DNA of 57,255 nt from contig CAIRGO010000278.1 in the NCBI GenBank assembly GCA_903878115.1, positions 1 through 57,255 of the forward strand, given 5' to 3'. The position numbers and the translations under genes are program-made. Shown here in pieces: positions 9,892 through 50,238 of the stretch. The stretch's first letter is position 1. Each line of letters begins with the position of its first letter. The stretch comes from Akkermansiaceae bacterium. GTDB taxonomy: Bacteria > Verrucomicrobiota > Verrucomicrobiia > Verrucomicrobiales > Akkermansiaceae. The notes under the pieces are model-generated. The model was not told where the DNA came from, did not search any database, and worked only from the letters and a program-made list of their open reading frames with translations.

Positions 9892-10011
9892 GGTGGATGG
9901 AAAATTCTTGCCCACCAATGAAGCGCATCACAGGCGAATAGCAAAGCTTTTTCGCAATTAAGCCAACGTGCGAGACAACAAAAATGGCCAATCAGCAGGA
10001 ATCAACCAAGA

Positions 10012-28222: not shown

Positions 28223-28229
28223 AACCGTC

Positions 28230-30084: not shown

Positions 30085-31152
30085 TTATTTCAATCCGGCG
30101 ATGATTTGATCGGTGATGGCTTTGACCAATGCTTCAGCCTCGGCATTGCTCGATGCACTTGCAACCGCTGGTGTGCCGATATTGCAGACGGTGCCTGGAT
30201 GGAAATCGGCGTTGTCGCAGAGTTGGCATTCTTTCCAGTTGGCGCGTTTGTCATCCATGCCTAAAACTTTGCGTAGGGCAATGAGTTCTTTCGCTTGGCC
30301 ACCCGTGATGGTGAGCAGATTTCCACCGTTGAGTTGGCTAGCCACCCATACAGTTTTGCAATAGGACTCGACGTTTTCCATTTTCCAATAGGCGTCTTCA
30401 ATGTCTTTACCCCAGGTGATGACACCGTGATTGACCATCAACACGGCCATGTGATCGACGGCTGCATTGCCGACTACTTCTGCATTCGCAGGAGTGCCAG
30501 GGGTACGGTATTCCGCCATACCGATTTGACCGAGGAATACTTCTGCTTCTGGAATCATGCAAGTAGGAGGCTGCACACCAGCAACGGCGAATGCAGTGCC
30601 ATGTGGTGGGTGGGCGTGGCAGCAGGCTTTGGCTTTTGGCTGGCGTTTCATGATCGCAAGGTGCGTCATGCACTCAGAAGTGCGTTTGAATTTCCCAGCA
30701 AGTTGATTGCCTTCTAAGTCCACGAGACCCATTTGCTCCACGGTCATGAATCCTTTAGAGACTAATGTAGGCGTGCACAGAACGAGATTGTCACCGACAC
30801 GAATTGTTAGATTGCCACCATTGCCGTCGGTGTATTCACGGGCCCACATGCGTTGGCCGATTTCGACCATGCGCTCTTTGAGTTTTACGATCGCAGGAGA
30901 ATGGAAAAATGCGTGAATTTCCTGTGGGGTTTTCGGATCTTTTCCTGGTGTCCAATGAAATTCATAGTTCGGCAAAATCGGCTCTTCTTTTGTCAGCGTA
31001 GGAACGGCAGCAGATAATGAGACACCGAAAGTTTTCGTGAGGCCACTGAATACGTCTTGTGCCGCTGGGGTAACAATGACTCCTTTAGGAATGGTAGTAT
31101 TGCCACTACGGATCATGGCTTCGGCGTCGGCGGCGGTGATGACTTTTTTCAT
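30085..31152 (-). CDS. BMC-associated class II aldolase (fuculose/rhamnulose-1-phosphate type)
   Basis: Last gene of the BMC operon. It should split L-fuculose- or L-rhamnulose-1-phosphate into dihydroxyacetone phosphate and lactaldehyde inside the compartment. The class II aldolase/adducin domain spans about residues 85-300: GNGGNLTIR, the zinc-ligand histidines in CCHAHPPHG, and NHGVITWG. There are two additions. The N-terminal 70 residues (ITAADAE and KGVIVTPAAQDVF segments) are not part of the aldolase fold. The C-terminus ends, after an Ala/Ser linker, in an amphipathic helix (AEALVKAITDQIIAGL) that looks like a lumen-targeting peptide. ATG start, 42 bases after the BMC-P stop. Substrate is inferred from the PVM-type locus, not proven. 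Confidence 0.9.
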   Translation of the reverse strand: MKKVITAADAEAMIRSGNTTIPKGVIVTPAAQDVFSGLTKTFGVSLSAAVPTLTKEEPILPNYEFHWTPGKDPKTPQEIHAFFHSPAIVKLKERMVEIGQRMWAREYTDGNGGNLTIRVGDNLVLCTPTLVSKGFMTVEQMGLVDLEGNQLAGKFKRTSECMTHLAIMKRQPKAKACCHAHPPHGTAFAVAGVQPPTCMIPEAEVFLGQIGMAEYRTPGTPANAEVVGNAAVDHMAVLMVNHGVITWGKDIEDAYWKMENVESYCKTVWVASQLNGGNLLTITGGQAKELIALRKVLGMDDKRANWKECQLCDNADFHPGTVCNIGTPAVASASSNAEAEALVKAITDQIIAGLK

Positions 31153-31194
31153 GTGTTTGTTAGAGTAAATGGTTATAGTAAAAAAAATGCGTGA

Positions 31195-31491
31195 TTAAGG
31201 CAGGTAATTAATTTGGTCGAAAATTGCGATGCATAACGCATCGATAGGAATAGGATTTGCAAACGGCGCGGTGGCCTCTGCGCCTTCGGAAAAGCCAATG
31301 ATATCGCCCTCTCCAGCGCCTATATTGTCAAAAACAATCAGCGATGATTGCGCGCTCACGGCTTGTTTTTTCTGACATGCATTCTGAAGTTGCGAGCCAT
31401 CGAGCGGGCTAACGATAAGCCATCGACCACCCACCAGTGCCGGGTCTTGCACACTGAGGACTGTTTTTCCGATGACTTGACCGATGCGCAT
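31195..31491 (-). CDS. BMC-P pentameric shell vertex protein (EutN/CcmL family), copy 3
   Basis: A 98-residue shell protein of the pentamer class that caps the vertices of the microcompartment. It begins MRIGQVIGKTVLSV and carries the family pattern GRWLIVSPLD then IVFDNIGAGEGDIIGFSEG. The frame runs 26 codons further upstream, inside the preceding BMC-P gene. The ATG at 31491, one base after that gene's stop, is the natural start and implies translational coupling. Confidence 0.93.
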   Translation of the reverse strand: MRIGQVIGKTVLSVQDPALVGGRWLIVSPLDGSQLQNACQKKQAVSAQSSLIVFDNIGAGEGDIIGFSEGAEATAPFANPIPIDALCIAIFDQINYLP

Positions 31492-31492
31492 G

Positions 31493-31771
31493 CTAGAGAG
31501 ATGTGCTAAGGATTTCTTCGTCGATGATGCCTTGCACAAACATACGAATCGGCGAGCTATCGTCGTCAACTAGATGACGAGCACCAAGGCCATCTGTGCT
31601 CACGAGCACTCGCTCATGCAGACCGGCACCAAAAAGATCAATCGCAACGAACGGAGCACCAACGTTCACATCAGCATCACCCAATTGCTGACAGAGCAGC
31701 AACTTTTTCCCGCTCAGAGAACGGTGGCAATGAGTGGCAACAGCGTTGCCTACGATGCGACAAATGAGCAT
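31493..31771 (-). CDS. BMC-P pentameric shell vertex protein (EutN/CcmL family), copy 2
   Basis: A 92-residue vertex protein: MLICRIVGNAVATHCH at the start, KKLLLCQQL in the first half, and VAIDLFGAGLHERVLVSTDG in place of the usual D-x-x-GAG-x-G-x-x-V block, so the second glycine of that block is replaced by His. It sits 5 bases downstream of the aldehyde dehydrogenase and one base upstream of the next BMC-P gene. Three BMC-P genes in one locus is a hallmark of the planctomycete/verrucomicrobium compartment. Confidence 0.92.
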   Translation of the reverse strand: MLICRIVGNAVATHCHRSLSGKKLLLCQQLGDADVNVGAPFVAIDLFGAGLHERVLVSTDGLGARHLVDDDSSPIRMFVQGIIDEEILSTSL

Positions 31772-31776
31772 ATACG

Positions 31777-33249
31777 TTAGATAATGCGGAGGTTATCCAC
31801 CAAAACACAGCGGCGGACGCGGGTAAATGTTTTAGGTGTTGTAATTCCTTCGCCAGTAGTCGTGGCGATCGAATAGGAAAGGTAGCCCTCGCCACCAAGT
31901 CCTAGGCCAGCGGTACTTGGACCATTTTTTACGAAAATTGTAGTGTCCATTTCTTTCGCCATGTAGGTCATATTGTCTACATTGCGTGTATGAATCATCG
32001 CGGAGTGACGATAATTGTGCTCTGCTTGTTTTGCGTGTTTCACGGCCGTGACAAAATCGGGACAAGCGACGATAGGAATCATCGGCATCATTTGCTCTTC
32101 CTGCACGAAGGGATGATCGGCACTTGTTTCGCCAAAAAGAATCGGCGCGTCAGCAGAAACAGAGGCACCAGCATGACGAGCCAGCACAGCTGGATCAGCA
32201 CCGATGAGATCGCGATTAACGGCAGCATGTGAGCAACCGCCGTCGGTTTCCTTGTAGGTAAATGCCGCTTTCGATAGCGCATCAACCTGCCCAGCGTTTA
32301 GTCGAGCGGCACCGGCTTTTTCTAGCTCCTCCATGAAGCGATTAAATACTGAACCAACGACGAACACTGCTTTTTCACCAATGCAAAGAAGATTGTTATC
32401 AAAGCCACCACCTTCGATGATGCTTCGTGCAGCTTTCGCCAAATCAGCGGAGTCATCAACTACGACCGTAGGATTTCCAGGACCAGCACAAATGGCACGT
32501 TTGCCAGATTTCATCGCAGCACCGACCACAGCAGGTCCGCCGGTGATGGCGAGCAGAGGAATTTGCTCATTTTTGCAAATCAGATTGAACGAATCCAATG
32601 TTGGCTCCTCGATGCATGTGATCAAATTCGAGATGCCCAACTCACGTTCGATCGCTTTGTTGTATTCGCGCACCGCCATGCAAGCACTACGAGCTCCACC
32701 TGGATGCGGATTAAAGACAATCGCATTTCCAGCAGCCACCATACTGATGATGTTTCCTGTTAGAGTAGGAACCGAGTGAGTCACTGGGAGAATCGCACCG
32801 ATCACGCCGAAGGGAGCAAACTCCTCCATCATGATACCGCCGTCGCCGCTCATCGCGTCAGGACGAAGAAATTCTACACCGGGAACATTTTTGGTAATCA
32901 GCAACTTGCCAATCTTGTGATCAACACGACCGATTTTTGTTTCATCCATCTCGAAACGACCCCAAGGTTCTGCATTGGCAACAGCAAGTGTTTTCACTAT
33001 TTCTATCACCTTCATGCGGGCACCAACACCGGCTTTTTTCAGTTTCAAATGGGCATGGTGTGCAGCATCGGCGGCTTTATCCACACAAGTGAACACGCCG
33101 TAGTTGCCATCGGAACCACTGCATCCACAACCGCAGTTACCTTTACTAGCAACGGCCGCAGCGGCAGCAGCAACAGGAACATTCGCCGCGGCGAGACGCG
33201 AAAGCACGCTTTCAACAACGGATTGGATTTGCTTTTGATCGAGAGTCAT
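31777..33249 (-). CDS. BMC-associated CoA-acylating aldehyde dehydrogenase (EutE/PduP type)
   Basis: Oxidises an aldehyde (lactaldehyde expected here) with NAD+ and CoA to the acyl-CoA inside the compartment. It has 490 residues. An N-terminal amphipathic helix (IQSVVESVLSRL, residues about 8-19) matches encapsulation peptides. An Ala-rich linker follows and then a short Cys-rich stretch (NCGCGCSGS, about 38-46). The dehydrogenase body contains GGPAVV, GPGNPTVVVD and the catalytic cysteine in NNLLCIGEK. ATG start. A 92-base gap with a strong hairpin separates it from the BMC-P gene upstream, the largest gap inside the operon. The CoA-acylating type is inferred from its resemblance to EutE/PduP and the neighbouring PduL. 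Confidence 0.94.
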   Translation of the reverse strand: MTLDQKQIQSVVESVLSRLAAANVPVAAAAAAVASKGNCGCGCSGSDGNYGVFTCVDKAADAAHHAHLKLKKAGVGARMKVIEIVKTLAVANAEPWGRFEMDETKIGRVDHKIGKLLITKNVPGVEFLRPDAMSGDGGIMMEEFAPFGVIGAILPVTHSVPTLTGNIISMVAAGNAIVFNPHPGGARSACMAVREYNKAIERELGISNLITCIEEPTLDSFNLICKNEQIPLLAITGGPAVVGAAMKSGKRAICAGPGNPTVVVDDSADLAKAARSIIEGGGFDNNLLCIGEKAVFVVGSVFNRFMEELEKAGAARLNAGQVDALSKAAFTYKETDGGCSHAAVNRDLIGADPAVLARHAGASVSADAPILFGETSADHPFVQEEQMMPMIPIVACPDFVTAVKHAKQAEHNYRHSAMIHTRNVDNMTYMAKEMDTTIFVKNGPSTAGLGLGGEGYLSYSIATTTGEGITTPKTFTRVRRCVLVDNLRII

Positions 33250-33286
33250 AGAGAAATTAAAAAATGAAAATTATGAAGATAAAGAT

Positions 33287-33327
33287 GATCCGCCAGATCT
33301 GATCTGATTGGTCAGATCAGTCGGATC
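33287..33327 (-). other. Intercistronic hairpin with five GATC sites
   Basis: Between the BMC-P and aldehyde dehydrogenase genes, CTGATCTGA (33299-33307) and TCAGATCAG (33312-33320) form a perfect nine-base stem with a TTGG loop. GATC occurs five times in 41 bases. No T tract follows on the minus strand, so it is not a classic terminator. An mRNA-processing or stability element is more likely. Confidence 0.6.
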
Positions 33328-33341
33328 AGAGATTTTTACGC

Positions 33342-33650
33342 TTAGCTCGTCTTGTATACAGTTTTCCCCAGCACCTCCACGCGGTCAACAATGGCTACCA
33401 CGGCAGCGTCCACTGGGACGGGCTTGAGGTCGCCAGCTTGGCGGGCACTGCTGCCTTGACAAAATAATACCAATTCCCCCACCCCGGCACCTACGGTGTC
33501 GATCGCGATGATGGTGTTTTGACCATCCTTGAACTTGGTGTTATCTTTATCGTCGACGAGTTTAGGGCGCAGAACTAACAGCTTGCGTCCGGTGAGATGC
33601 TCGTCTTTTTTTGTCGCCACTACTTGGCCGATGACTTCTGCGAGAAACAT
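33342..33650 (-). CDS. BMC-P pentameric shell vertex protein (EutN/CcmL family), copy 1
   Basis: A 102-residue vertex protein: MFLAEVIGQVVATKK at the start, KLLVLRPK, then IIAIDTVGAGVGELVLFCQGSS, the core family motif in its most complete form among the three copies, and a C-terminal VVAIVDRVEVLG. ATG start without a Shine-Dalgarno sequence. It follows a BMC-H gene after 56 bases containing a small hairpin. Confidence 0.94.
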   Translation of the reverse strand: MFLAEVIGQVVATKKDEHLTGRKLLVLRPKLVDDKDNTKFKDGQNTIIAIDTVGAGVGELVLFCQGSSARQAGDLKPVPVDAAVVAIVDRVEVLGKTVYKTS

Positions 33651-33671
33651 AAGTGTTTTCCGTTAGATGAT

Positions 33672-33696
33672 TAGCGCGCCGCGTGACGACGCGCTA
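33672..33696 (-). other. Small intercistronic hairpin in BMC operon
   Basis: TAGCGCG (33672-33678) and CGCGCTA (33690-33696) form a seven-base stem with an eleven-base loop between the third BMC-H gene and the first BMC-P gene. It lacks a T tract and would lie 21 bases before the BMC-P start codon in the mRNA. Confidence 0.4.
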
Positions 33697-33706
33697 TGAC
33701 ATCGGA

Positions 33707-34015
33707 TTATTTGCGAGGAGCGCGAGCGGCGGCCGATGTATCCTTGGGAAGAACACCGTCGATGGAATCATCAGGGCGCGCAATCACGTGAGCGCTGACG
33801 ACTTCACCACATGCACTAGCTGCTGCGGCGCCAGTGTCGATGGCCGACTTCACAGCGGCTACATCACCGGTGATGACGGCATTGCATAATGCACTACCGA
33901 CTTGTTTCATCGGTCCTGCGAGTTCCACGTTTGCGGATTTAAGCATCGCGTCAACTCCGACGACGAGGCATGCGAGTCCGCGAGTTTCTAATAGTCCTAC
34001 TGCTTGTTTAGCCAT
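33707..34015 (-). CDS. BMC-H hexameric shell protein, copy 3
   Basis: A 102-residue shell tile with the single BMC fold: AVGLLETRGLACLVVGVDAM at the start and VITGDVAAVKSAIDTG after the pore loop. The pore loop reads QVGSALC. It carries a longer C-terminal tail (SIDGVLPKDTSAAARAPRK) than the other two BMC-H proteins, which could cover the outer face or bind a partner. ATG start 39 bases after the acetate kinase stop. Confidence 0.95.
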   Translation of the reverse strand: MAKQAVGLLETRGLACLVVGVDAMLKSANVELAGPMKQVGSALCNAVITGDVAAVKSAIDTGAAAASACGEVVSAHVIARPDDSIDGVLPKDTSAAARAPRK

Positions 34016-34054
34016 ATATTTTGTTTGTTGGTTGTTAGATTGTTTGAGAGAAAA

Positions 34055-35242
34055 TTAATTTTTCGTATGAGAAAGTTTGCGGAAGACTTCGCGAGCAAGC
34101 ACGAGTTCTTCATTGGCGGGGATGACAAAAATTTTTGCCTTTGAATTTGCGCTGCTTAGTTCCCCTTCTACAGCGCGGCATGCGAGATTGCGTTCTTGAT
34201 CGAAGACCAAGCCAAATTCTTCTAGTCCTTCGCAAACAGCTTTACGAATGGCATGGTCATTTTCGCCAATTCCGGCAGTGAATACTAAAGCATCGATCCC
34301 GCCCATTTGCCAAGCGAACGCCCCTACCCAATGGCGGATTGAATCGATCAAACTACTAAGTGCAAGAGCTGCATCAGCATTGCCTTCTTTAATGGCAGCG
34401 TGGATATCGCGGATATCATTACTCACTCCAGAAACACCTTGAAGGCCTGACTCTTTGGTTAATTGTCGCTCGGCTTCTTCCAAAGAAATACCGAGAGTTT
34501 TCATCGCGTATGGCAGCGCCCCAGAGTCGAGATCGCCAACGCGGTTATTTTGCGGAAGTCCACTTTGCGGAGAAAACCCCATGCTGGTGCCGATCGCTAC
34601 GCCATTATAAATTCCAGTAACGGAGCTACTGCCACCTAAGTGACAAGAAACCACGCGCAATGCTTTTCCTGAAATTGGTGCAGGACCATTTTGATAGAGT
34701 GACGCGGTGCTGAGGGCGACATCATCACGACCTAACAACTCAGCAGATCGTTCCGCCACAAATTTGTGACTCGCGCCATGGAAACCATAACGACGGATGC
34801 CGATATCACGCCAAGATTTTGGCAACGCATACGTAGCGCGTTCTTCGGGAACCCATTGATAAAATGCAGTTTCAAATAAAGCCACTAGGCGCGCCTTGGG
34901 CAATGATTTGGCAAACTGACGAATGCCATTTGCATAAGGAGGATTGTGCGCAGGTGCTACGGCAGAAAAATCTTCTAACGCTTTAACACAGATGTCATCT
35001 GCGATCACGCAGCCGCTGAGATCTTTGCCTAAGACAGTTTTAAATCCGACCGCATCGATTTCATCAGCGGACGAAATAACACCCTCGGTTTGCAAATTTG
35101 CTAACGCCTCATCGATCACCGCTGCATAATCACTCACCCGCTCAAAGCCGCCCTTGGCTAATACCTCCTGACCGCTCTGATCCATACGGTAGAGTCGGTA
35201 TTTGAAGGAAGTAGATCCAAGATTGGCGATTAGGACTAACAT
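34055..35242 (-). CDS. ackA: Acetate/propionate-type kinase of the BMC operon
   Basis: Transfers phosphate from an acyl phosphate to ADP, giving ATP and the free acid (lactate expected from lactyl phosphate here). It has 395 residues. The N-terminal signature ANLGSTSFK and the later CHLGGSSSVTGIYNG and FTAGIGEND motifs are all present. No targeting helix is visible at either end, so it may work outside the shell. Its place between BMC-H genes links it to the compartment pathway rather than to general acetate metabolism. The acetyl-CoA synthetase at 3363 is far away and unrelated to this operon. Confidence 0.93.
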   Translation of the reverse strand: MLVLIANLGSTSFKYRLYRMDQSGQEVLAKGGFERVSDYAAVIDEALANLQTEGVISSADEIDAVGFKTVLGKDLSGCVIADDICVKALEDFSAVAPAHNPPYANGIRQFAKSLPKARLVALFETAFYQWVPEERATYALPKSWRDIGIRRYGFHGASHKFVAERSAELLGRDDVALSTASLYQNGPAPISGKALRVVSCHLGGSSSVTGIYNGVAIGTSMGFSPQSGLPQNNRVGDLDSGALPYAMKTLGISLEEAERQLTKESGLQGVSGVSNDIRDIHAAIKEGNADAALALSSLIDSIRHWVGAFAWQMGGIDALVFTAGIGENDHAIRKAVCEGLEEFGLVFDQERNLACRAVEGELSSANSKAKIFVIPANEELVLAREVFRKLSHTKN

Positions 35243-35284
35243 GAGTCGAGCAGTTATCTAACGAAAAGACGATGTGCCTGGTGA

Positions 35285-35563
35285 TTAACCAATCCAAGTG
35301 CCGAGCTTGCTGAGATCGTCGTGCGGACGTGCGATCACTTGCACAGAGGTCACAGTGCCTACGTTGGAGGCGGCTGCGGCGGCTGCATCGAGACCAGCTT
35401 TCACAGCGGCAACATTGCCGGTGAAGAATCCAGTCACGAGACCAGAACCGATTTTATCCCAGCCAGTCATTTGAATGTCGGCGGATTTTAGTGCGGCATC
35501 TGCTCCTTCGATCAATGCGATGAAACCTTTGGTTTCCAGAATTCCGATTGCTTGTTTAGCCAT
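35285..35563 (-). CDS. BMC-H hexameric shell protein, copy 2
   Basis: A 92-residue hexamer-forming shell protein. It starts MAKQAIGILETKGFIALIEG, very like copy 3. The pore-loop motif KIGSGLVTG is the same as in PduA-type shell proteins, where a serine lines the pore. GNVAAVKAGLDAA follows and VIARPHDDL ends the fold. ATG start. It lies 36 bases after copy 1 and 42 before ackA. Confidence 0.95.
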   Translation of the reverse strand: MAKQAIGILETKGFIALIEGADAALKSADIQMTGWDKIGSGLVTGFFTGNVAAVKAGLDAAAAAASNVGTVTSVQVIARPHDDLSKLGTWIG

Positions 35564-35599
35564 AATAGTAATATGTTAGATTGTTAGATTTGTGAAAAA

Positions 35600-35872
35600 T
35601 TATGAGATTCCCAATTGCACGAGCAAGTCATTGTGCGGACGTGCAATGACGTGAGAACCTACCAGCTCGCCTACACGACCAGCGGCATCAGCGCCAGCTG
35701 CAACAGCAGATTTCACACTGCCTACGTCGCCCTTGACGATCACGGTGAGGAATCCCCCGCCTGTTTGAATTTGTTTAACGAGTTCGACATTAGCCGCTTT
35801 CGTCATGGCATCGGTAGCCTCTACGCTGCCGACATATCCTTTGGTTTCGATGAATCCGAGTGCTGCACTCAT
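35600..35872 (-). CDS. BMC-H hexameric shell protein, copy 1
   Basis: A 90-residue hexamer-forming shell tile: ALGFIETKGYVGSVEATDAM, pore loop QTGGGFLTV and VIARPHNDLL near the end. The pore loop differs from the other two copies, with glycine where copy 2 has serine. ATG start without a Shine-Dalgarno sequence; 45 bases downstream of pduL. Confidence 0.95.
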   Translation of the reverse strand: MSAALGFIETKGYVGSVEATDAMTKAANVELVKQIQTGGGFLTVIVKGDVGSVKSAVAAGADAAGRVGELVGSHVIARPHNDLLVQLGIS

Positions 35873-35917
35873 AATAGTATGTTGTTGATTGGAATTGTTA
35901 GTTTGTTAGATGAAAAA

Positions 35918-36592
35918 TTATTTGATTAGTTCACAAAAAGTATCGGCTTTTAGTCCACAGGCATTGCCTTCATCGGTATCGATGTGGACTTCTAGTTTGA
36001 AAGATGGATCGACGCGGACGACGAGGTTATCAAAAGTCATACCCAGTGCGCCATGGACTTTGAGCTTCATCACGTCGAGATGTTTTACTCCGTAAAAAGC
36101 AGCATCATCTGGATGCATATGCACGTGTGGTTGAGCGCGAATGATTCCCTCTTTCAGTTCAAAATAACCATGCGGCCCCATGAGCATTCCGCCCTGAGTT
36201 CCGACGATATCGCCGGACATGCGCACTGGAATATCGAAGCCTAACGCGATGGCATCTGTGTAAGCGAGTTCCACTTGATTCAGATTACGACAAGGACCGA
36301 GAATTCGCAGATTGGAAATCATGCGACTGCGAGGACCGATCAGAGTGATGGATTCTTTTGCGGCAAATTGACCATGCTGATAGAGGCCTTTCATTGGCTC
36401 TAATTTATGACCAGGCCCGAACAGTGCTTCCACTGCTTCTTGTGTCAAATGACAATGGCGCGCACTAATATTAACCAACAGTTGGTTCGGTGCTTGGCTC
36501 GGCGCAGATAAGCCCATCTTAAGGTAAATCTGCTCACGAACCAATTGCTCGATCACATTTCTGGGTGTTTGGGAATTGATGGAAGTGGACAT
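35918..36592 (-). CDS. pduL: PduL-type phosphate acyltransferase (phosphotransacylase)
   Basis: Converts acyl-CoA and phosphate to acyl phosphate and recycles CoA inside the compartment. From the ATG at 36592 it has 224 residues. The frame is open further upstream, but those residues would precede the targeting helix and cover the promoter. An N-terminal amphipathic helix (RNVIEQLVREQIYLKMGL) and a Ser/Pro/Gln linker form a typical encapsulation peptide. The two PTAC half-domains carry the metal-binding histidines in SARHCHL and PHVHMHPDDA, with MSGDIVGTQGG between them. First gene of the ten-gene BMC operon, with a palindrome and -35/-10-like boxes directly upstream. Confidence 0.95.
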   Translation of the reverse strand: MSTSINSQTPRNVIEQLVREQIYLKMGLSAPSQAPNQLLVNISARHCHLTQEAVEALFGPGHKLEPMKGLYQHGQFAAKESITLIGPRSRMISNLRILGPCRNLNQVELAYTDAIALGFDIPVRMSGDIVGTQGGMLMGPHGYFELKEGIIRAQPHVHMHPDDAAFYGVKHLDVMKLKVHGALGMTFDNLVVRVDPSFKLEVHIDTDEGNACGLKADTFCELIK

Positions 36593-36601
36593 CGACACGG
36601 C

Positions 36602-36635
36602 AAATATCTTTGTTTTTTCGCTTTTGTCAACAAAA
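36602..36635 (-). promoter_or_regulatory. Promoter and possible operator of the BMC operon
   Basis: On the minus strand TTGACA (36630-36625) and ATATTT (36607-36602) are spaced by 17 bases, a good sigma-70-type pair. The -35 box lies inside the perfect dyad TTTTGT-CA-ACAAAA (36622-36635), a plausible repressor site. Transcription would begin only a few bases before the pduL ATG, giving a nearly leaderless mRNA. Confidence 0.5.
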
Positions 36636-36739
36636 ATCCAATTATTTCCAAAAAAAACCAGAATCTTCATTACGCAGCCAGAAATTTACGGCAATTAAGT
36701 GCTCTATTTCCCTTGGAATGATAACAGAAGTAAATCGTT

Positions 36740-37384
36740 TTACTGTTTTTTCTCAGACTCCAGTCCTGCGACGATCGCCTTATGAAACGCCTCCGTTAAT
36801 GGGGCAGTCGGAGCCCCATTTTTGGGATTAGCGCTCCCGAGCACATACATATCATTCAATATAACACTTTGTGCTGCCATGACTTTGGCGGCGATTTTGT
36901 TGTATTCGACTTCCGATCCTAGATCATAATTGATAAAACCGCCCCCAGGGGAAACAGGGGGGATGGAGCTTGCCCAGATTATTTTTGCGCCAGTCGCCTT
37001 CAATCGCCGGACTAACTCGTTCAGGTTTTTTTCATAGAGTTCCGGCGAGCTCACCCGCACGCCGCCAGCGGCTTTGCTCAATGCCCGGACACCCTTGAGG
37101 TTCGGATGTTTATAACACAGATCCGCGATACCGAAGCTGAAGTAAATGACGCTCCACTTGTCTTTGCCTAACAACTCATCGAGATGCGCTAGTGCGTAGG
37201 ATGAGTCGCCGGGATTGGCATAGACGACTTGCGCGCGCTCCTTAAATTCTTGAACCGCCGAATTGGTCAAGTTTTGATAAAAACTATCGCCAAGGATCAA
37301 CACCCGCGGCAAGGGCTCTGCTGCGAAAGCTTTGATTCCAAGCAATAGCAATCCCCCTAAAATATGTAGCTTAAGCCGTGGCAT
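36740..37384 (-). CDS. Secreted SGNH/GDSL-family hydrolase-like protein
   Basis: An exported protein of 214 residues; the signal peptide ends near residue 22 (AFAAE). It has the block I motif ILGDSF with the nucleophile serine, the G-x-x-D segment FGIADL and a later WASSIPPV block. The usual C-terminal D-x-x-H pair is not obvious: the nearest is TEAFH, so either Glu replaces Asp or activity is altered. It may be an acetylesterase acting on polysaccharides. It starts two bases after the DUF1552 gene stop and is the last gene of the four-gene operon. Confidence 0.82.
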   Translation of the reverse strand: MPRLKLHILGGLLLLGIKAFAAEPLPRVLILGDSFYQNLTNSAVQEFKERAQVVYANPGDSSYALAHLDELLGKDKWSVIYFSFGIADLCYKHPNLKGVRALSKAAGGVRVSSPELYEKNLNELVRRLKATGAKIIWASSIPPVSPGGGFINYDLGSEVEYNKIAAKVMAAQSVILNDMYVLGSANPKNGAPTAPLTEAFHKAIVAGLESEKKQ

Positions 37385-37386
37385 AC

Positions 37387-38754
37387 TTAGATTCTCAATT
37401 CTGTCATTTCCCCGGTGCTGTCAGCGAACTTACTCGTCGGCGCATCGACAGCGTTGAGCATCGATACGAAAAGATTCGCCAACGGCTTTTTCTTCGCCCC
37501 TTCGAACGCATGCAAGTTGCCGTGCTTGAAGCCCAGCGCGTTGCCGCCCGCGAGATGGATCGGGTAGTTTTTCGTACCGTGTCCGGCGTGCGAGTGGGCG
37601 GAGCCCCAAAGCACAACGGTGCGATCGAGCATGTTGCCATCGCCTTCCTTGGTATCGCGCAGGCGCTGCAGGAAGTAGGCGTGTTGTTCCGCGCGCCACT
37701 TGTCCCATGGGCCGTTTTCTGGGGCGCGGCCGTGGGAGAAGTCATGCGAGGATGCTTTGCAACCAGGGAGCACGTAGGTCGGGTACTGCATGGTGGGATG
37801 TGAATTTGACGATTCACTCTCGAGCATGAGCGTGGCAAAGCGCGTCGAATCAGTCAGGAATGCCAGATAGATCAGGTCATACAGGCAGCGGGTATATTCC
37901 TGCGCTTCGGTGTATGCGACTTCGAGGTTAAGCCCCTTGGTATCCACGTTGGGCAATGGCTCATGAGTCCACTGACTGGAGCGTTCGACCCGTTGCTCGA
38001 GCGCACGCACCGTGTCCAGATACTCAGTCATCTTTTGCTGGTCCGCCTTGCCCAAACGGTTATTCAGGCTTTTGGAATTATCCAGCATAACATCCAGCAC
38101 ACTGGCGTCCCGCTTCAACCGTGTACGGACTTGTTCCGGACTGGATCCCGCATACGGCTGAAACATTCGATTGAAGATTTCCTGCGGTTTCTGCATGGCG
38201 GGGATCGGCCGGCCCGGGCCGTAATGGGAAAGCGTTTTGGCGTTTCCGTAAGAGCCAGTGCCGCCCTCGGTGCCGAGCACGAGGGATGGGAAGCGAGTCT
38301 TGCTACCACTGATCTTTGCTGCGAATTGATCGATGGAGATGTTATTGGTCTGCTCAGTACTAGCCATTAACGCCCCGGTGCCAAAGACATCGCCACTGCT
38401 GTGGCCGCCCATCCCGTAGCCGCCGACATGATCGAGACCACGCAGATAGCTGACGTATTCCTTGAGTGGAGCGAACGGAGCCGAAGATTTATTGAAAGTC
38501 AGCGGACCGGGATCCATGCACGGAAACCAGTTCCACTCGTGATGCGGCTTGCCCGCAATCGGGATGCCTTCAAGGGTATCGGGCATGTAAGCGCCGTAGG
38601 CGAAATAGCTAATCATCATCCGCTTGGGCAGCGCTTTGCCGGCATCAGCAGCCTTTGCCGATCCCATCATGCCTTCGAGAAACGGCAAGGCCAATGCCAT
38701 GCCGGTACCCCGAAGAAATTCACGCCGATCAAGATGCCAGGATTTTTGTTTCAT
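37387..38754 (-). CDS. DUF1552 family protein with Tat signal
   Basis: A 455-residue protein of a family found mainly in planctomycetes, verrucomicrobia and myxobacteria, with unknown function. The ATG at 38754 gives MKQKSWHLDRREFLRG followed by a hydrophobic stretch, a twin-arginine export signal, which suggests the protein folds with a cofactor before export. The frame is open to 38832, but that start would bury the signal. A histidine-rich SHAGHGTKNYP region lies near the C-terminus. It follows the DUF1592-type gene by 37 bases, the usual pairing of these families, and is much richer in GC than the BMC genes. Confidence 0.9.
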   Translation of the reverse strand: MKQKSWHLDRREFLRGTGMALALPFLEGMMGSAKAADAGKALPKRMMISYFAYGAYMPDTLEGIPIAGKPHHEWNWFPCMDPGPLTFNKSSAPFAPLKEYVSYLRGLDHVGGYGMGGHSSGDVFGTGALMASTEQTNNISIDQFAAKISGSKTRFPSLVLGTEGGTGSYGNAKTLSHYGPGRPIPAMQKPQEIFNRMFQPYAGSSPEQVRTRLKRDASVLDVMLDNSKSLNNRLGKADQQKMTEYLDTVRALEQRVERSSQWTHEPLPNVDTKGLNLEVAYTEAQEYTRCLYDLIYLAFLTDSTRFATLMLESESSNSHPTMQYPTYVLPGCKASSHDFSHGRAPENGPWDKWRAEQHAYFLQRLRDTKEGDGNMLDRTVVLWGSAHSHAGHGTKNYPIHLAGGNALGFKHGNLHAFEGAKKKPLANLFVSMLNAVDAPTSKFADSTGEMTELRI

Positions 38755-38791
38755 AGATGTTGTTACTTTAGTCCGATGGGGTTTCTTACAG

Positions 38792-41323
38792 CTAGGGTTT
38801 GCCCCGAAAGGTGTCACTCTGACAAATGGCAATGATTATGTCTTGAAAGCGATAGTCATTTTTCTCGGTCTGACTGCCTATTTGTTCGACGAGGAGAAAA
38901 TCTTTATAAGTAAGACTCCGTCCCAAGCTATAACTGAGAAACCTTCGTATTACGTTTTCAGCGATGTCGTCCTTGCGTTCCGCGAGCAGAAACGCCTTGA
39001 GCGGCTCCATCCCGTCGATCGTCGGACCGCGTGGGACGCGGGCGTCAGCATGGATTTCTACCGTGTTGACCGTCTTGAGGTAAGCTTCGTACCCCGCCAG
39101 ATCTTTGTCGATTTTTTCGATGAATCCCCTGACGTTGACGCCCGCTTTAGGAACCATTGGCTGATATTTTCCGATCGCATTGTATTTTTCAAAAGGGATT
39201 CCCCAAGGGTCGAGGCTTGCATGGCATACGTTACAAGTTTCTTCCTTCCGGTGCTGGCGCAGCATATCCTTGATGGTCACAGCTTTCTCCGCTGCTGCGC
39301 CGACGGTGTCCGCCAGCGCCGGCACCTCGGCTGGCGGCGGCTTCACATCTTCGCCGAGGATCGCCTCGCGCAACCACACCGCGCGATAAATCGGATGCGG
39401 CGCCGAGCCTGTCGATTTTGCCACCAGCACCGAGCCCTGAGTGAGCAACCCGCCCAGCCGATGTTCCGGCTTGATCGGCACAGCACGCAACTCGTTGCCT
39501 TGCACCCCATCTACCCCGTAATGTCCCGCAAGCGGTTGATTCAGTACGGCAAAGTTAGAATCCACCAAGTTGGTGATGCTGGCATTTTTCCCAATTAATT
39601 CAGCGATGAAAGCCACGGTCTCACTCTCCATGTAATCGCGAATCGTCGGACGATTTGGCACTTCCCGTCCCTTCGCTTCACCGCCTGCAGCAAACAGAAA
39701 CCGGGGGAACAGCTGCAGGTTAATGTTCCGCGTTTTCGCCTTCGAAATACTCAGCCATTGCAGGGTGAAATTCTTAATAAAATCACCGGATCGTTTGTCT
39801 GCGAGCAACCTGCGCACTTGCGTTTCAATCGTAGCCGGATCATCCAGCTTACCCTGCGCAGCGAGTGCAAGCAGCGTGTCATCCGGCATGCTTCCCCAGA
39901 GGAAATAGGACAGCTTGGAAGCCAGTTCATATTGGCGTGTGGTGACTCCGTTTTCGGCAACTGTATGATAGAGGAATTGCGGCGCAGTGAGCACCAGCGC
40001 CAAGGTTTCGCGGATGGCGTCTTCCAACGTCGGGGAATCACCCTCCAAAATATTGTAAACCGTCACGAACCGATCAACCTCTTCCGGCAACACCGGCCGG
40101 CGAAACGCCCGTGTCATAAAACGACTGATGACTTCCCTTACATACGCCGGCTTATTGGTTTCACGTAACGGTGAGGCAAACATGATACGAGTGTGATGAT
40201 CCGGCGGCCACACATCAGCAATCGGCGCTTCAAACTCAATCGATTCAACGGATACCCGTGGCCCGGAGACGTCCCATCCTCCACCATTGTCATTATAGTC
40301 GTTGAGGTGGCCGTTGTCCCAGAGATTCACTGGCTTGACGCACAGTGCCGGAGGCGACATCCCACCTTTTAGCGAAATCGGGGGGCGGACCGGAAAATTT
40401 TCAATGCGGCCGCGCATCTCAAACATTTGAGGATTGTCCGTGGTGTTGGTCAGTCGCAGGTTGCCGACGGGCTCAAGTAGAAAGAGCGCTTGAAACCCAG
40501 GCGGATAACCCATCACCATTTGCAGTGGAACGCTATCAACTCCCGGCGGCAAGATCGCCGATGCCTTAAACCGGATGCGGAATTCGCCCGTTTTCGGCCA
40601 GCTTTTCAGATTTAGGCCCTCGCTTGCGGCGTTGCGACCAGCGCCACGATAGACACCAATCTCGTCCGCATTCTTACCAGCGGCAGACGGAACTTTTGTG
40701 ATCCACTTAGCCTCAGAGCGATGGATCTCCGGCTTGCCTGGATCCACGATTGCCGAAGTCATCGCGCGCTGGGCGCACTCCAAGTAACGATCCATCTGTT
40801 CGGGACCGATCAACATGAACTCGGCTGTGTTATTGAAGCGGTAAGATTTTTCCGGATCCACAGGCAGGCCGCCAGAGAGCTTCCAGTCGAACCCAAGCAG
40901 ATCGCGCATGGTGTTCTCATATTCAAAGTTGGTGAGACGACGGGCCGTAGGAACCGCGGCCTCCAAATCAGGGCTGCTGGCGAACTGGCGTATGCCGGTC
41001 TCAATCCATGCGATGACCGCCTTGCGGTCCGCGTCGTCCGGCTGCTCCTCATCCTCTGGCGGCATCTCACCGCTTCTGAGTTCCTTGAGAATTTTTTCCC
41101 AACGCACCAGATCGCGTCCTACCGCCAGACCGCCATCTAGATCGTGAAGGGTGATCTTCCCTTTGCTTTTTTTCGGGCCGTGACAGGAAACACAGTTGGC
41201 TTCGAAAACCTTGCCGATAATAGAGGGAACAGTTGTTGCGTCTACCGGAGCAGCCAAAGCAGAGTATTGCAGCCCTGAAAACAACAGGCAACCAGCGGCG
41301 AAAACAGTTATGCGTGCCTTCAT
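38792..41323 (-). CDS. Planctomycete-type cytochrome c / DUF1587-1595-1592-1588-1585 protein
   Basis: An 843-residue exported protein with the standard domain chain of this family. A signal peptide ends near residue 24 and is followed by a planctomycete cytochrome C domain with one haem-binding motif (CVSCH). Next come DUF1587 (RRLTNFEYENTMRDLLG), DUF1595 (FMTRAFRRPVLPEEVDRFV), DUF1592 (YELASKLSYFLWGSMPDDTL), DUF1588 (with GSVLVAKSTGSAPHP and a second CNVCH) and DUF1585 (IRRFLSYSLGRSLTY). The role is unknown, presumably a periplasmic redox function with the DUF1552 partner encoded next. ATG start 11 bases after the esterase stop. Confidence 0.93.
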   Translation of the reverse strand: MKARITVFAAGCLLFSGLQYSALAAPVDATTVPSIIGKVFEANCVSCHGPKKSKGKITLHDLDGGLAVGRDLVRWEKILKELRSGEMPPEDEEQPDDADRKAVIAWIETGIRQFASSPDLEAAVPTARRLTNFEYENTMRDLLGFDWKLSGGLPVDPEKSYRFNNTAEFMLIGPEQMDRYLECAQRAMTSAIVDPGKPEIHRSEAKWITKVPSAAGKNADEIGVYRGAGRNAASEGLNLKSWPKTGEFRIRFKASAILPPGVDSVPLQMVMGYPPGFQALFLLEPVGNLRLTNTTDNPQMFEMRGRIENFPVRPPISLKGGMSPPALCVKPVNLWDNGHLNDYNDNGGGWDVSGPRVSVESIEFEAPIADVWPPDHHTRIMFASPLRETNKPAYVREVISRFMTRAFRRPVLPEEVDRFVTVYNILEGDSPTLEDAIRETLALVLTAPQFLYHTVAENGVTTRQYELASKLSYFLWGSMPDDTLLALAAQGKLDDPATIETQVRRLLADKRSGDFIKNFTLQWLSISKAKTRNINLQLFPRFLFAAGGEAKGREVPNRPTIRDYMESETVAFIAELIGKNASITNLVDSNFAVLNQPLAGHYGVDGVQGNELRAVPIKPEHRLGGLLTQGSVLVAKSTGSAPHPIYRAVWLREAILGEDVKPPPAEVPALADTVGAAAEKAVTIKDMLRQHRKEETCNVCHASLDPWGIPFEKYNAIGKYQPMVPKAGVNVRGFIEKIDKDLAGYEAYLKTVNTVEIHADARVPRGPTIDGMEPLKAFLLAERKDDIAENVIRRFLSYSLGRSLTYKDFLLVEQIGSQTEKNDYRFQDIIIAICQSDTFRGKP

Positions 41324-41334
41324 TGTTTTTATAC

Positions 41335-42663
41335 TTATTTACTGCGGGGATGCTCTACCTCCACGGGAAAGGGACGGGTCTTCGGAACAGGATTCACCGC
41401 AATTTCGTCGACAAACAGCCACGGACTCTCGGTGACAAGCTTGACTTTAATATATCGGCCATTCGCCTTGTTGGTTTCAGCAAGTATCAGCAAGGGCTGA
41501 CGTTTCAATTCCACGGGCTTCTGTCGTCGCACATGGGCTGAGTGACCAACCTTAAATGATTTACCGGGCACGTCTTCGAATTTGGCGCTGTCATTGGAAA
41601 CGAAAATGGTTGTTTGCTTGGGAATGATGGCACCGAGCACTGGATCCACCAAGATACTGATGGCAACACCGTTGACATCTTGCGACTGACCGAGATCAAT
41701 CACAAATTCCACACCATCCGGCGCCGAGGCAAAACCGAGCCACTGTTTGCCGGGTTGATCGGTGGCACCGTATTTACCATCGACCAGCGAAGTTAATCCT
41801 GACTTTTCATCAGTATATTTTTCATCAGGCTTACTGCCGGTGATGGCTTTGCTCACTGCGGCGTGGGTCTTGATGTTGACTGTCGAATCAAAAAAAACCG
41901 CGTCAAAAAACTGTTCATCCAACTTCAATTGCGGGTCGATGATCTGGCAGGCTTTGCGAGCAAAACGCTGCCCCAACACTCGGTAACCCGCTGGAGGAAA
42001 GTGACCTGAATCTAACTCAAAGCCTCCCCAAGGATTTACCCCTTTATTCAAGTCATCGGTATCGACCCATGCCCCATTTTCATTGGCCTCGCCTATCTTC
42101 ACCTCCTTAGCGCGCACGATGTCACCATCGACAATCCCCTTGCTCGGCAGCCAATAATCGTTGATTCTACCAATGACAAAATTGATCTTTTGCAGATCGA
42201 GATCCTTTTTAAACTGGTCCAGGATTCCGTAAAAGCTTTGTTCGTAAACACTCCCCCAACCGCCTTCTGCATCCGCTTCGCCCTGCATCCATATAAACGT
42301 CACCGAGGCGATTTTTTCGCCTTTTATCTTATTTTTTAAGATTTGCAGGAGTTGATCATAGAGTTGGCCATTGGTGCTGATATCGACCGGCTTGGAATCT
42401 GCGGGAGCCGCCCAAAGTTTATACCATTGTCTAATTGGCTGGCTGGGTTTGCCATATGTCACGACCAGAACATTGTCTTTACCAAACACCTGCGACACCG
42501 ATTCGGTAAAAGAGCCGGGCAACGGCTCGCGCATGTTCGACTGCCCTGAGAGTATGAACAGATGCTTGCCTTTTTCTGCAGACGGCTCCGCAGCCATCAC
42601 CATGCCGCACAGGAATAGTAACATACCACAAATCGCACTCCAACGTTGCCATTGATGTTTCAT
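41335..42663 (-). CDS. Secreted SASA-domain esterase (sialate O-acetylesterase-like)
   Basis: A predicted exported carbohydrate esterase of about 442 residues. The start could be the ATG at 42684 or the one at 42663 (MKHQWQRW); the latter sits directly before the signal peptide and is preferred. The catalytic elements of the SASA/SGNH fold are visible: nucleophile serine in GQSNM, the WMQGEAD oxyanion block, and DSGHFPPAGYRVLG with the Asp-x-x-His pair. The C-terminal 170 residues look like a beta-sandwich of the discoidin (F5/8 type C) kind. First gene of the four-gene operon. It is more A/T-rich than its downstream partners. Confidence 0.87.
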   Translation of the reverse strand: MKHQWQRWSAICGMLLFLCGMVMAAEPSAEKGKHLFILSGQSNMREPLPGSFTESVSQVFGKDNVLVVTYGKPSQPIRQWYKLWAAPADSKPVDISTNGQLYDQLLQILKNKIKGEKIASVTFIWMQGEADAEGGWGSVYEQSFYGILDQFKKDLDLQKINFVIGRINDYWLPSKGIVDGDIVRAKEVKIGEANENGAWVDTDDLNKGVNPWGGFELDSGHFPPAGYRVLGQRFARKACQIIDPQLKLDEQFFDAVFFDSTVNIKTHAAVSKAITGSKPDEKYTDEKSGLTSLVDGKYGATDQPGKQWLGFASAPDGVEFVIDLGQSQDVNGVAISILVDPVLGAIIPKQTTIFVSNDSAKFEDVPGKSFKVGHSAHVRRQKPVELKRQPLLILAETNKANGRYIKVKLVTESPWLFVDEIAVNPVPKTRPFPVEVEHPRSK

Positions 42664-42684
42664 ATTTATTATTTTCGTTTCCAT

Positions 42685-43052
42685 TAGGTATTTCTACTTT
42701 GTATCCAGCAGTTTCATTCGATTTTATACGAATGCTGGGGACTTGCTCTATCACTCTGAGCGGACAAGCCCCAGATAGACAGGCCTGAGGAAGAGTAATG
42801 GCTAGTTCCCGGGATTTGATGGCAACTATCATGCGATACAAATGTAGCTTTCCAGACCGTTCTGGTAAGATTTTACTCGGCAGCATTTATTTGAAGTTGG
42901 AAATCAGACGTCACGGCCAGTGCACCCTTTCTTAAGTGTATTGGAGAACAAGAGTCCAACCGTCATTCGAATGAGTGGGTTTGGTTTGCGTTTGAAAACT
43001 GTCGAATGCATCTATGCTTGCCTCTGCTCAGGCGAGCTGCTAGGTATCCGTT
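42685..43052. other. Intergenic region between esterase operon and DeoR regulator
   Basis: About 370 bases with divergent promoters for the esterase operon (minus) and the regulator (plus). No gene is supported. A small hairpin (CCAGA-CCGT-TCTGG, 42852-42865) is visible. The palindrome found before pduL is absent here. Confidence 0.5.
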
Positions 43053-43811
43053 GTGTTACCGCTCGAACGACAGCAAAAGATTCTGCAGCAATTGCAGGAA
43101 AATGGCAACATCCGCACGATGGAAATTGCGGCGATGCTGGATGTCACCGACGAGACAGTGCGCAAAGATTTCGAAGCATTAGAGAAACGTGGTTACTTAA
43201 TACGTGTGCATGGTGGAGCGACGCGCCCGTTGAAAATCCGCGAAGAAATTTCTCTCACTGAGCGGCAACTGACCAATCGTGAGGAAAAAACCGCCATCGC
43301 GCGGGAAGCGGCGAAGCGCATTCAACCAAACGAAACCATTTTTCTCGATGCCTCCTCCACCGCGCTGACACTGACCGAGTTTTTGCCTGACTATCCGCTT
43401 ACGATTTTGACGAATGCCCTTAATGTGTTTACCGCACTGGAAGGCCGCCCTAACCTCGATCTTATCTGTACAGGAGGTCTATATGATGTTCGTTCACGTT
43501 CCTTCATCGGCCTGATCGCGGAACAATCGCTGCGTCGATTCAATATTCATCGCATGTTTTTTTCAGGAAGTGGACTGCATCTCACTCGCGGAATTTCCGA
43601 AACGAACAATCGCCAAGCAGTATTCAAAGAGCGCGTCGTGGCCTGTGCCGAGGATGTTGTCTTTCTTGCCGACCACACCAAGCTTGGGCAAAAAGCCGCA
43701 TTTTTCTTCGCGCAGATCAGCGACCTAACTTGCATCATTACTGATTCCCATGCCGACAAAAGAATTCTCAGCGATCTCTCTGGCAGCGGTGTCGAGGTGA
43801 TCGAGGCGTAA
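43053..43811 (+). CDS. DeoR/GlpR-family transcriptional regulator
   Basis: A 252-residue sugar-phosphate-responsive repressor. The N-terminal DeoR helix-turn-helix is clear: RQQKILQQLQENGNIRTMEIA, DVTDETVRKDFEALEKRGYLIRVHGGA. The C-terminal effector domain has IFLDASSTALTL, LTNALNVF, TGGLYD and DHTKLGQKA. The start is GTG (43053), with no Shine-Dalgarno sequence. PVM-type microcompartment loci commonly carry such a regulator, and a phosphorylated deoxysugar would be the expected inducer. Here it is separated from the operon by the four-gene esterase/DUF1592 operon, so control of the BMC genes is inferred, not shown. Confidence 0.9.
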   Translation: MLPLERQQKILQQLQENGNIRTMEIAAMLDVTDETVRKDFEALEKRGYLIRVHGGATRPLKIREEISLTERQLTNREEKTAIAREAAKRIQPNETIFLDASSTALTLTEFLPDYPLTILTNALNVFTALEGRPNLDLICTGGLYDVRSRSFIGLIAEQSLRRFNIHRMFFSGSGLHLTRGISETNNRQAVFKERVVACAEDVVFLADHTKLGQKAAFFFAQISDLTCIITDSHADKRILSDLSGSGVEVIEA

Positions 43812-44089
43812 GTTTTTTATAAGACGTACTAAGACTACTGCGGAATTATGTCACAATAAAACTGCTTCTTTATTCCGAAATGACCTTGCTATTTTCTAAA
43901 GCAAGTGCCATCATCACTTCACTGCTGTGTGCGTTCGTTAAGGTTGCAAGCCCGATCCGATGCATTATATCCGGGGCTCGAACCGTGGGTCAATGTCATG
44001 CCTTCACTGGAAGACAGCGATTCACGTTAGGCCCCACTTTGGAGAGCTTACAGGAACGTGGCTCTTTGCACCTGAACGGCACAGCGGTA

Positions 44090-48531: not shown

Positions 48532-50238
48532 TTAAAGCCCTTTATCGGTCACGGCTCCTTCGGAGGCACTGGTTACTAGCTTGGCGTATTTGGCTAAAAC
48601 ACCGAAACGATAACGTGGCTCTGGTTGAACCCAGGCTGCGCGGCGCGTTGCTAGCTCAGCTTCCGAAAGACTGACATCGATGCGGTTAGTCGCTGAGTCG
48701 ATGATGATTTCGTCACCGTCCTGCAGGAGTGCAATGTTGCCGCCCACAAATGCTTCCGGGGTAATGTGACCTACGACAAATCCATGACTGCCACCAGAGA
48801 AACGCCCATCAGTAATGAGTGCTACATCTTTGCCTAGTCCAAGGCCCATGACGGCGCTGGTAGGTCCTAGCATTTCACGCATCCCAGGACCGCCTTTCGG
48901 CCCTTCCATACGGATCACGATGATATCACCTTTTTGAATTTTACGCGCTAAAATGGCTTTCATCGCATCGTCTTCTGATTCGAATACACGTGCTAAGCCC
49001 TTGAAGGATTCACCTTCTTTTCCTGAAATTTTTGCCACGGCACCATCTTGCGCAAGATTGCCGCGGAGAATGCGTAGGTGACTGTCTTTTTTGATCGGAT
49101 TGTCCAATGAACGAATGATTTGTTGTCCTTCTGGATAATAGATTTTCGATTTTTCCAAATTCTCCCGCATGGTGCGACCAGTGACCGTCATACAATCTCC
49201 GTGGAGCAATCCAGCTTCTAACAACATCCGCATCAAAGGTATGGTGCCGCCGATGCGCACCAAATCTGCCATAACGTATTTTCCACTCGGTTTCAAATCT
49301 GCGAGCACGGGAACGTTAGCCCCGATGCGCGCGAAGTCATCAATGGTGATTTCAACACCCGCTGAATGAGCCATCGCTGGAATATGCAAACAGGCATTGG
49401 TAGAACCGCCGAGCGCGATCAGAACAGTGATGGCATTTTCAAATGCCTCCTTGGTCATAATATCGCGTGGCTTGATGCCTAGATGAATCAAATTCAGTAC
49501 CGCAGCGCCGCCATCGAAACAATCGCGCATCTTGTCATCGCTAATCGCGGCCTGCGCAGAACTGTTTGGCAAACTCATACCCAGTGCCTCGATCGCACTA
49601 GCCATGGTGTTAGCGGTGTACATCCCGCCGCAGGAACCTGGGCCAGGAATGGCGCATTTCTCTACGGTTTCAAGCTCATCATCAGAGTATTCACCTCCAG
49701 CATGTTTACCCACGGCTTCAAAGACCGAAACGATATCGAGGTCTTTTTCTTCGCCTTTGATCGTAGCGCAACCGGGCAAAATCGTGCCGCCATAAACGAA
49801 AACTGATGGACGATTCATGCGGCCCATCGCCATCACACATCCTGGCATGTTTTTATCACAACCACCAATCGCCACAAAGCCATCCATGCCCTCGCAGCCG
49901 ACTACGGTTTCGATCGAATCCGCGATGACTTCGCGCGATACGAGACTATATTTCATGCCCTCAGTGCCCATCGAAATACCATCTGAAATCGTAATGGTGT
50001 TAAAAATCACTGCTTTACCGCCCGCGGCATTGATGCCATTCGCTGATTCACGCGCCAGTTTGTCGATGTGAACATTACAAGGTGTCACTTCACTCCACGT
50101 GGAGGCAACGCCAATTTGCACTTTGGCAAAATCCTCTTTTTTAAAACCGACAGCATAAAGCATCGCACGACTCGGCGCGCGATCAGGACCGTCTAACATA
50201 GGGCTAGAAAACTTACGAAACTCAGAAGAATCACTCAT
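48532..50238 (-). CDS. ilvD: Dihydroxy-acid dehydratase
   Basis: Makes the 2-keto acid precursors of valine and isoleucine. The 568 residues are the standard length. The iron-sulfur-linked cysteines sit in [16 protein letters not shown] and [14 protein letters not shown], as in the [2Fe-2S]/[4Fe-4S] IlvD family. The C-terminal [19 protein letters not shown] motif is complete, which separates it from phosphogluconate dehydratase. ATG start. It stands alone between two TPR-type genes, with no other ilv gene nearby. Confidence 0.96.

Follow-up and report, generated by a model that had tools for sequence, protein, structure and literature searches.

A probable insertion of an exported-protein operon between deoR and pduL at a microcompartment locus of an Akkermansiaceae bacterium

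Loci for bacterial microcompartments (BMCs) of the Planctomycetes-Verrucomicrobia (PVM) type, connected with fucose and rhamnose, have been described with a DeoR-family regulator nearby and with a lactate/malate dehydrogenase (PMC4207490, in the portion available to us), and fucose/rhamnose compartments have been reported in marine Verrucomicrobiota (PMC8857213, whose main text, as far as it was available, gave no hit for DeoR, DUF, cytochrome or esterase). The sites predicted for DeoR-family rhamnose regulators are direct repeats with a periodicity of 10-11 bp (PMC3870299, likewise from a portion of the paper). Here we analyse the window, that is, the whole stretch of 57,255 nucleotides of contig CAIRGO010000278.1 from an Akkermansiaceae bacterium (GCA_903878115.1), in which four genes stand between pduL of a PVM-type BMC operon and deoR, the putative regulator of that operon. 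We consider it probable (about 0.75) that this operon for exported proteins was inserted, in this branch only, between deoR and the operator-promoter of the BMC operon, and that it is likely independent of the compartment. The original prediction, made from the sequence, placed a four-gene operon exactly between the compartment operon and its likely regulator, which is borne out by gene order, coordinates and Pfam assignments: the four genes are co-directional on the minus strand, with gaps of 2, 37 and 11 nt counted from the end of the SGNH gene, and deoR and pduL stand 6.4 kb apart on either side of the insert. The features concerned are the following.

36685..43034, no strand: inserted segment (each end placed to within roughly 10 bp)
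36740..37384, minus strand: SGNH/GDSL-like hydrolase (Lipase_GDSL_2 at 31.5 bits, under the cut-off of 32.9; signal peptide by eye)
37387..38754, minus strand: DUF1552 (HXXSHH) protein (PF07586, E 1.8e-68; twin-arginine-like signal by eye)
38792..41323, minus strand: PSCyt1-PSD3-PSD5-PSD4-PSCyt3-PSD2 protein of the DUF1592 group (Pfam; two CXXCH haem motifs)
41335..42684, minus strand: SASA-type carbohydrate esterase (PF03629, E 3.2e-16)
42685..43052, no strand: new divergent intergenic region from the SASA gene to deoR, without a copy of the pduL element
43053..43811, plus strand: deoR, putative regulator of the BMC operon (Pfam HTH_DeoR and DeoRC), displaced by the insert
36603..36663, minus strand: conserved pduL control element, with three TGG direct repeats of 10-bp period (36631-36663), TTGACA (36625-36630) and a -10-like GATATT (36603-36608)
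30085..36592, minus strand: PVM-type BMC operon with pduL, two BMC-H genes, ackA, BMC-H, BMC-P, aldehyde dehydrogenase, two BMC-P genes and class II aldolase

Gene order in relatives and the junctions of the segment

The insertion that had been suggested is well supported by synteny and not by base composition: pduL lies next to deoR in the closest relatives, and the junction can be defined. PduL was searched for in 57 related genomes, this one included, and strong matches (E below 1e-100) were obtained in 18 of them. Among the ten genomes of the genus, pduL and deoR are divergent neighbours in G002, G004, G006 and G007. In G001 and G003 more than 100 kb separates the two genes, in G005 and G009 they are found on separate contigs, and in G008 the PduL search gave no match. 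The order of the BMC genes is the same in the genus relatives. For a wider view, we used PVM loci from named genomes, taking the best 80 of 581 confirmed, five of which are too short upstream for judging adjacency; the named PduL relatives belong nearly all to Akkermansiaceae and other Verrucomicrobiota. In 59 of the 75 usable loci deoR adjoins pduL, and in the other 16 it is absent beside pduL. None of the four inserted proteins matched any of the 80 loci (tblastn, E up to 1e-4, in 3.4 to 20.8 kb of DNA per locus). The counts from these loci and from the G-numbered genomes are not independent, because several records are identical in the two sets.

A tree of six compartment proteins joins this genome to G002 and G006 with support of 99/98, and the same trio is recovered by an AlaRS tree with support of 100/100; the RpoB family search found no match in this genome or in G006, and RpoB was thus not used for a tree. 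Both of these nearest relatives are without the insert and keep pduL and deoR adjacent. The simplest history would therefore be that adjacency is ancestral, that the insertion occurred in this lineage and that the separation in G001, G003, G005 and G009 is a different event. We also considered an ancestral separation common to this genome and those four, as raised by deoR identity and by similar proximal promoter letters (by eye), and set it aside because both trees group this genome with G002 and G006, in which deoR adjoins pduL.

When the flanks of the segment are joined, they align best to the uninterrupted intergenic regions of G002 and G006 at cut points 36684/43035, whereas alignment to G007 gives 36694 and 43043 (three of the four congeners with adjacent genes were aligned). 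The left junction falls just outside the conserved element, which stays on the pduL side. Pfam identified no recombinase or transposase among the four inserted genes, and no tRNA gene was found in the window. No sign of a mobile element was thus seen among the four genes and the listed repeats, the latter being the largest for 36600-43100 (20 of at least 60 direct families and 25 of 61 inverted pairs), which are short, of low identity and chance-like.

The control element at pduL and the reach of DeoR

The block of TGG repeats and TTGACA is conserved in all nine compartment-bearing genomes of the genus, as seen in an alignment of nine sequences. A model of the element finds one strong site per genome upstream of pduL in 9/9, scoring 32.9-44.1 bits; as the model was built from those same nine sites, their own scores are expected, and what is informative is that no others appear. 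The next-best site in any of the ten genus genomes reaches 15.0 bits, and the best in G008 reaches 13.6 bits (150 candidates scored per genome, of 359 to 1442). Among 40 of the 80 named loci, 22 element matches (E up to 1) were obtained in 21 loci, five of which are records of model members, and all lie about 100 bp or less from the start of the pduL match.

No copy of the element lies in the insert or in the interval from the SASA gene to deoR; in that interval the best profile score is -8.6 against a shuffled mean of -9.1, and the model matched nothing there (E up to 10). The putative operator is therefore missing from the promoter region of the insert, where an operon under DeoR control would be expected to carry it, and control of both operons through a shared operator is unsupported. 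The element is intact in G001, G003, G005 and G009 though deoR is unlinked there, and since these four congeners with a distant deoR keep it, control in trans is plausible. We infer that DeoR binds the TGG repeats.

A SASA/PSCyt-DUF1592/DUF1552/SGNH-like operon would thus have entered between deoR and the operator-promoter of the PVM fucose/rhamnose operon, with the complete TGG-repeat/TTGACA element kept beside pduL. DeoR may still act on the BMC operon in trans via the repeats, and the insert would be transcribed from a promoter of its own in the SASA-deoR interval, outside DeoR control. PVM loci could then lose the adjacency of regulator and operon and still keep a short control element at pduL, and this element offers a concrete, testable candidate for a DeoR operator in a widespread organelle.

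Two details of these promoter regions may be recorded here. The listed start of pduL (36670) lies upstream of the TTGACA box and an internal ATG at 36590-36592 is the likelier start; if TTGACA is the -35 box and that ATG the start, the pduL transcript would be nearly leaderless. Between the SASA gene and deoR there are five CATTCG/CGAATG words (42715-43003), one pair of which forms an inverted repeat. The cluster looked like an operator but was set aside: in 33 of 2096 equally long windows some 6-mer is as frequent, and the inverted form recurs at two further places in the genome.

The inserted genes, their composition and their relatives

The DUF1592 protein, a presumed dihaem cytochrome, has its CXXCH motifs at residues 44 and 697, and together with the adjoining DUF1552 gene its PSCyt and PSD domains make up a PSCyt3/DUF1552 module; the DUF1552 reading frame reaches further upstream, to a TTG at 38832. 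The SASA protein shows at its C-terminus an F5/8-type match (PF00754, 21.3 bits) under the cut-off of 28.2. Judged by eye, the SGNH-like, DUF1592 and SASA proteins have signal-like N-termini, and with the twin-arginine-like signal of the DUF1552 protein all four products are probably exported. Sequence searches of the PDB (E up to 1) found nothing related to the DUF1552 protein and only weak cytochrome matches for the DUF1592 protein (E 0.1 and 0.16). For the SASA protein they gave an acetylxylan esterase-related enzyme (E 0.0051) together with a hexosaminidase (E 0.0096). A structure of the DUF1552 protein predicted from the single sequence was set aside, with a mean predicted local distance difference test score (pLDDT) of 35.8.

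In freshwater Verrucomicrobia, PSCyt3 genes have been reported usually to adjoin a family of unknown genes, often with sulfatases close by, their function being given as unknown (PMC5615132, in the portion available); the constant neighbour described there may well be DUF1552. Our literature search found no paper naming both DUF1552 and DUF1592. The likeliest job of the insert would be exported redox and hydrolytic processing of carbohydrates, independent of the compartment, as suggested for PSCyt3 genes generally, and it adds a further instance of this common gene pair of unknown function.

The base composition of the segment had been held to differ, with guanine-cytosine (GC) contents of 57-62% in the DUF1592, DUF1552 and SGNH genes and 40% in the esterase gene. 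Over whole genes we obtained 54.6% for DUF1592, 56.4% for DUF1552, 50.1% for SGNH and 48.8% for SASA, and 52.5% for the insert against 49.0% for the window; a mild rise thus stands, whereas the values for SGNH and the esterase disagree, small hand samples having exaggerated the contrast. Two samples from the same genome were compared, the first of which is biased in that 14 of 20 contigs, plus C257, had been selected for PSCyt or DUF1552 matches, while the second was chosen by contig number (8 of 26 contigs being entirely N). Of 130 overlapping windows of 6.34 kb on the by-number contigs, 9 equal or exceed the GC content of the insert, and on contigs with other PSCyt/DUF1552 genes this holds for 94 of 281 windows of equal length. 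GC at third codon positions (GC3) lies at the 84th (SGNH), 94th (DUF1552), 91st (DUF1592) and 82nd (SASA) percentile of 89 open reading frames (ORFs) in the by-number sample. All four genes are therefore raised and none is beyond the range of the genome, and after both comparisons GC is a weak sign of foreign origin; the composition argument for an insertion is likewise weak.

Unlinked to pduL, the DUF1592-DUF1552 pair, often with an SGNH gene, has a further copy on contig C257 of this genome and others in relatives, whether or not these carry the compartment. A close DUF1552 relative (E at most 1e-120) is present in 28 of 244 family genomes sampled, this one included. Near-full-length SASA relatives were found in eight other genomes, three of which also have the pair, on other contigs, as far as the fragmented assemblies allow this to be seen. 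In a tree of 23 pairs, the DUF1592 and DUF1552 genes of the window join those of G574, which belongs to another family of the same class, with support of 100/100 and identities of 67 and 78%, and they stand apart from the C257 copy and from the same-genus copies. This tree differs from an earlier one of 22 rows in that G004 and G028 were dropped (long branches; the DUF1552 of G004 is partial in the stretch used) and G574, G542 and G374 were added. Since the nearest relative was found in another family, the origin of the insert is probably horizontal or an old paralogue, and its transfer is plausible.

Competing explanations and comparison with known systems

Several observations weigh against the insertion as we read it. 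The contig belongs to a metagenome-assembled genome and the junction is known from one assembly. No terminal repeats or target duplication were seen among the repeats listed, which leaves the mode of insertion without a mark. The compartment and AlaRS trees place the trio differently within the genus, the DeoR tree is without resolution, and the earlier pair tree, made without G574, left the pair of the window unplaced. Seven genus genomes have deoR relatives of 88-94% identity and an eighth has one of 76%, with slightly higher identity to the clade of G001, G003, G005 and G009 (92-94%) than to G002 and G006 (92/90%). Those four genomes present a second separation of deoR and pduL, and with a DeoR tree that does not resolve this makes a more complex history possible. 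Finally, a terminator scan found no intrinsic terminator between the SGNH gene and pduL, so that read-through into pduL is possible.

That the segment is a horizontally acquired island is possible, at somewhat less than an even chance in our estimate: the pair joins a genome of another family and not the C257 or same-genus copies, and the GC3 of DUF1552 and DUF1592 is high, yet the composition lies within range and is often equalled on PSCyt-bearing contigs of this genome (94 of 281 windows), the identities to the nearest relative are only 67/78%, recombinase, tRNA gene and terminal repeats were lacking in the searches described, and an old paralogue moved within the genome fits the tree equally. 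Misjoining of an esterase-operon contig to the pduL promoter during assembly would be favoured by the source genome (4.41 Mb in 331 contigs, 95.3% complete, 0.86% contamination) and by the single assembly, but only one pduL and one deoR were found in the genome, both on this contig, which makes such an artefact very improbable. As an alternative to an insertion, the original prediction had proposed a functional merger, with exported esterases preparing acetylated fucose- or rhamnose-rich polysaccharide for the pathway. The inserted esterases and PSCyt/DUF1552 proteins would then act extracytoplasmically on such polysaccharide, be co-induced with the compartment and feed it. This we regard as unlikely. 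The clear SASA match and the weak SGNH match agree with it, as does the gap before pduL, where no terminator was found, and two sulfatases and an esterase come after the C257 copy. The G574 pair is followed by an amidohydrolase (L336:10714-11658) weakly like L-fucono-1,5-lactonase (114 bits against a cut-off of 400). Moreover, the gene set is present in 7 of 18 BMC genomes and in 3 of 39 others (57 relatives; Fisher p 0.0075). Presence was read by hand with a floor of about 50% identity, below which a 41% set in G028 falls, and non-family genomes were judged on DUF1592 alone; this co-occurrence is weak because five of the seven genomes belong to one genus. Against a merger, the putative compartment operator has a single match in the genome and none in the insert or its promoter, the set is also found in compartment-less genomes, the inserted proteins have no match in the examined flanks of the 80 PVM loci, and only three of the eight genomes with SASA relatives have the pair, on other contigs.

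The genes upstream of pduL elsewhere point the same way. In the 16 loci without an adjacent deoR, one ORF was scanned per locus (a longer, farther one in L228, L235 and L299), and eight of these encode a Mur ligase, EF-P, an ATP synthase subunit, Lnt, a transporter permease, CbiX, DsrE and another BMC protein. Two have a sulfatase-modifying-factor (FGE) domain and one a GDSL match, which would suit a merger, and five are without a match. With 13 of 16 upstream genes unrelated or unassigned, a general recruitment of polysaccharide genes beside pduL was rejected; in G009, the gene upstream of pduL encodes a GntR-type regulator. G003 is the exception, with a divergent slot beside pduL (L339:7688-18124) that holds two sulfatases, a SASA esterase, a DUF6288 protein, an unassigned protein and an alpha-L-rhamnosidase, the TGG element lying between this sulfatase/rhamnosidase cluster and pduL. 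The G003 cluster is a better candidate for true coupling than the insert of the window, where the sequence gives no sign that the inserted genes work with the compartment, their link to it being one of position, and a merger is unsupported. It is also quite improbable that the insertion rewired the compartment, such that deoR and the exported operon would share a new divergent promoter region, read-through would provide a second input to pduL, and the PSCyt and DUF1552 proteins would oxidise or de-esterify fucose- or rhamnose-sugars before uptake into the BMC. An insertion likely independent of the compartment therefore remains our preferred explanation.

Elsewhere in the window, a 6S RNA match (Rfam RF00013, 47.6 bits against a gathering score of 46.4) occupies 43916-44094, between deoR and the apolipoprotein N-acyltransferase gene, and two adjoining YHYH-domain genes (26669-29783) lie downstream of the compartment operon. 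An IlvD/Edd-family dehydratase is encoded at 48532-50238, and a 90% identical relative directly adjoins deoR in G001. The AT skew is extreme (to -0.6) at 10001-11500, inside the ORF 10012-12861.

The compartment operon itself is of the described kind. Its ten minus-strand genes span 30085-36670 when the listed start of pduL (35918-36670) is used, with Pfam matches to PTAC, Aldedh, Aldolase_II, Acetate_kinase, BMC (PF00936, three genes) and EutN_CcmL (PF03319, three genes). With the PVM locus of PMC4207490, as described in the portion available, it has in common BMC-H and BMC-P proteins, class II aldolase, PduL, aldehyde dehydrogenase, acetate kinase and a nearby, ancillary DeoR-family regulator. 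It differs from that locus in that a four-gene operon parts deoR from pduL and in that no lactate/malate dehydrogenase gene is among the ten genes (the remaining genome was not searched). Adjacency of deoR and pduL, found in 59 of 75 loci, is to be taken as the common state here and not as a published requirement. Like the sites predicted for DeoR-family rhamnose regulators (RhaR; PMC3870299, in part), which have a periodicity of 10-11 bp, the putative site at pduL consists of direct repeats, with a 10-bp period; here, on sequence grounds, three TGG-centred repeats stand directly before a TTGACA box. The insert has the same domain set as other PSCyt3/PSD and DUF1552 pairs, and among the PSCyt3/DUF1552 copies examined it is the only one that has a preceding SASA esterase gene and adjoins a BMC operon.

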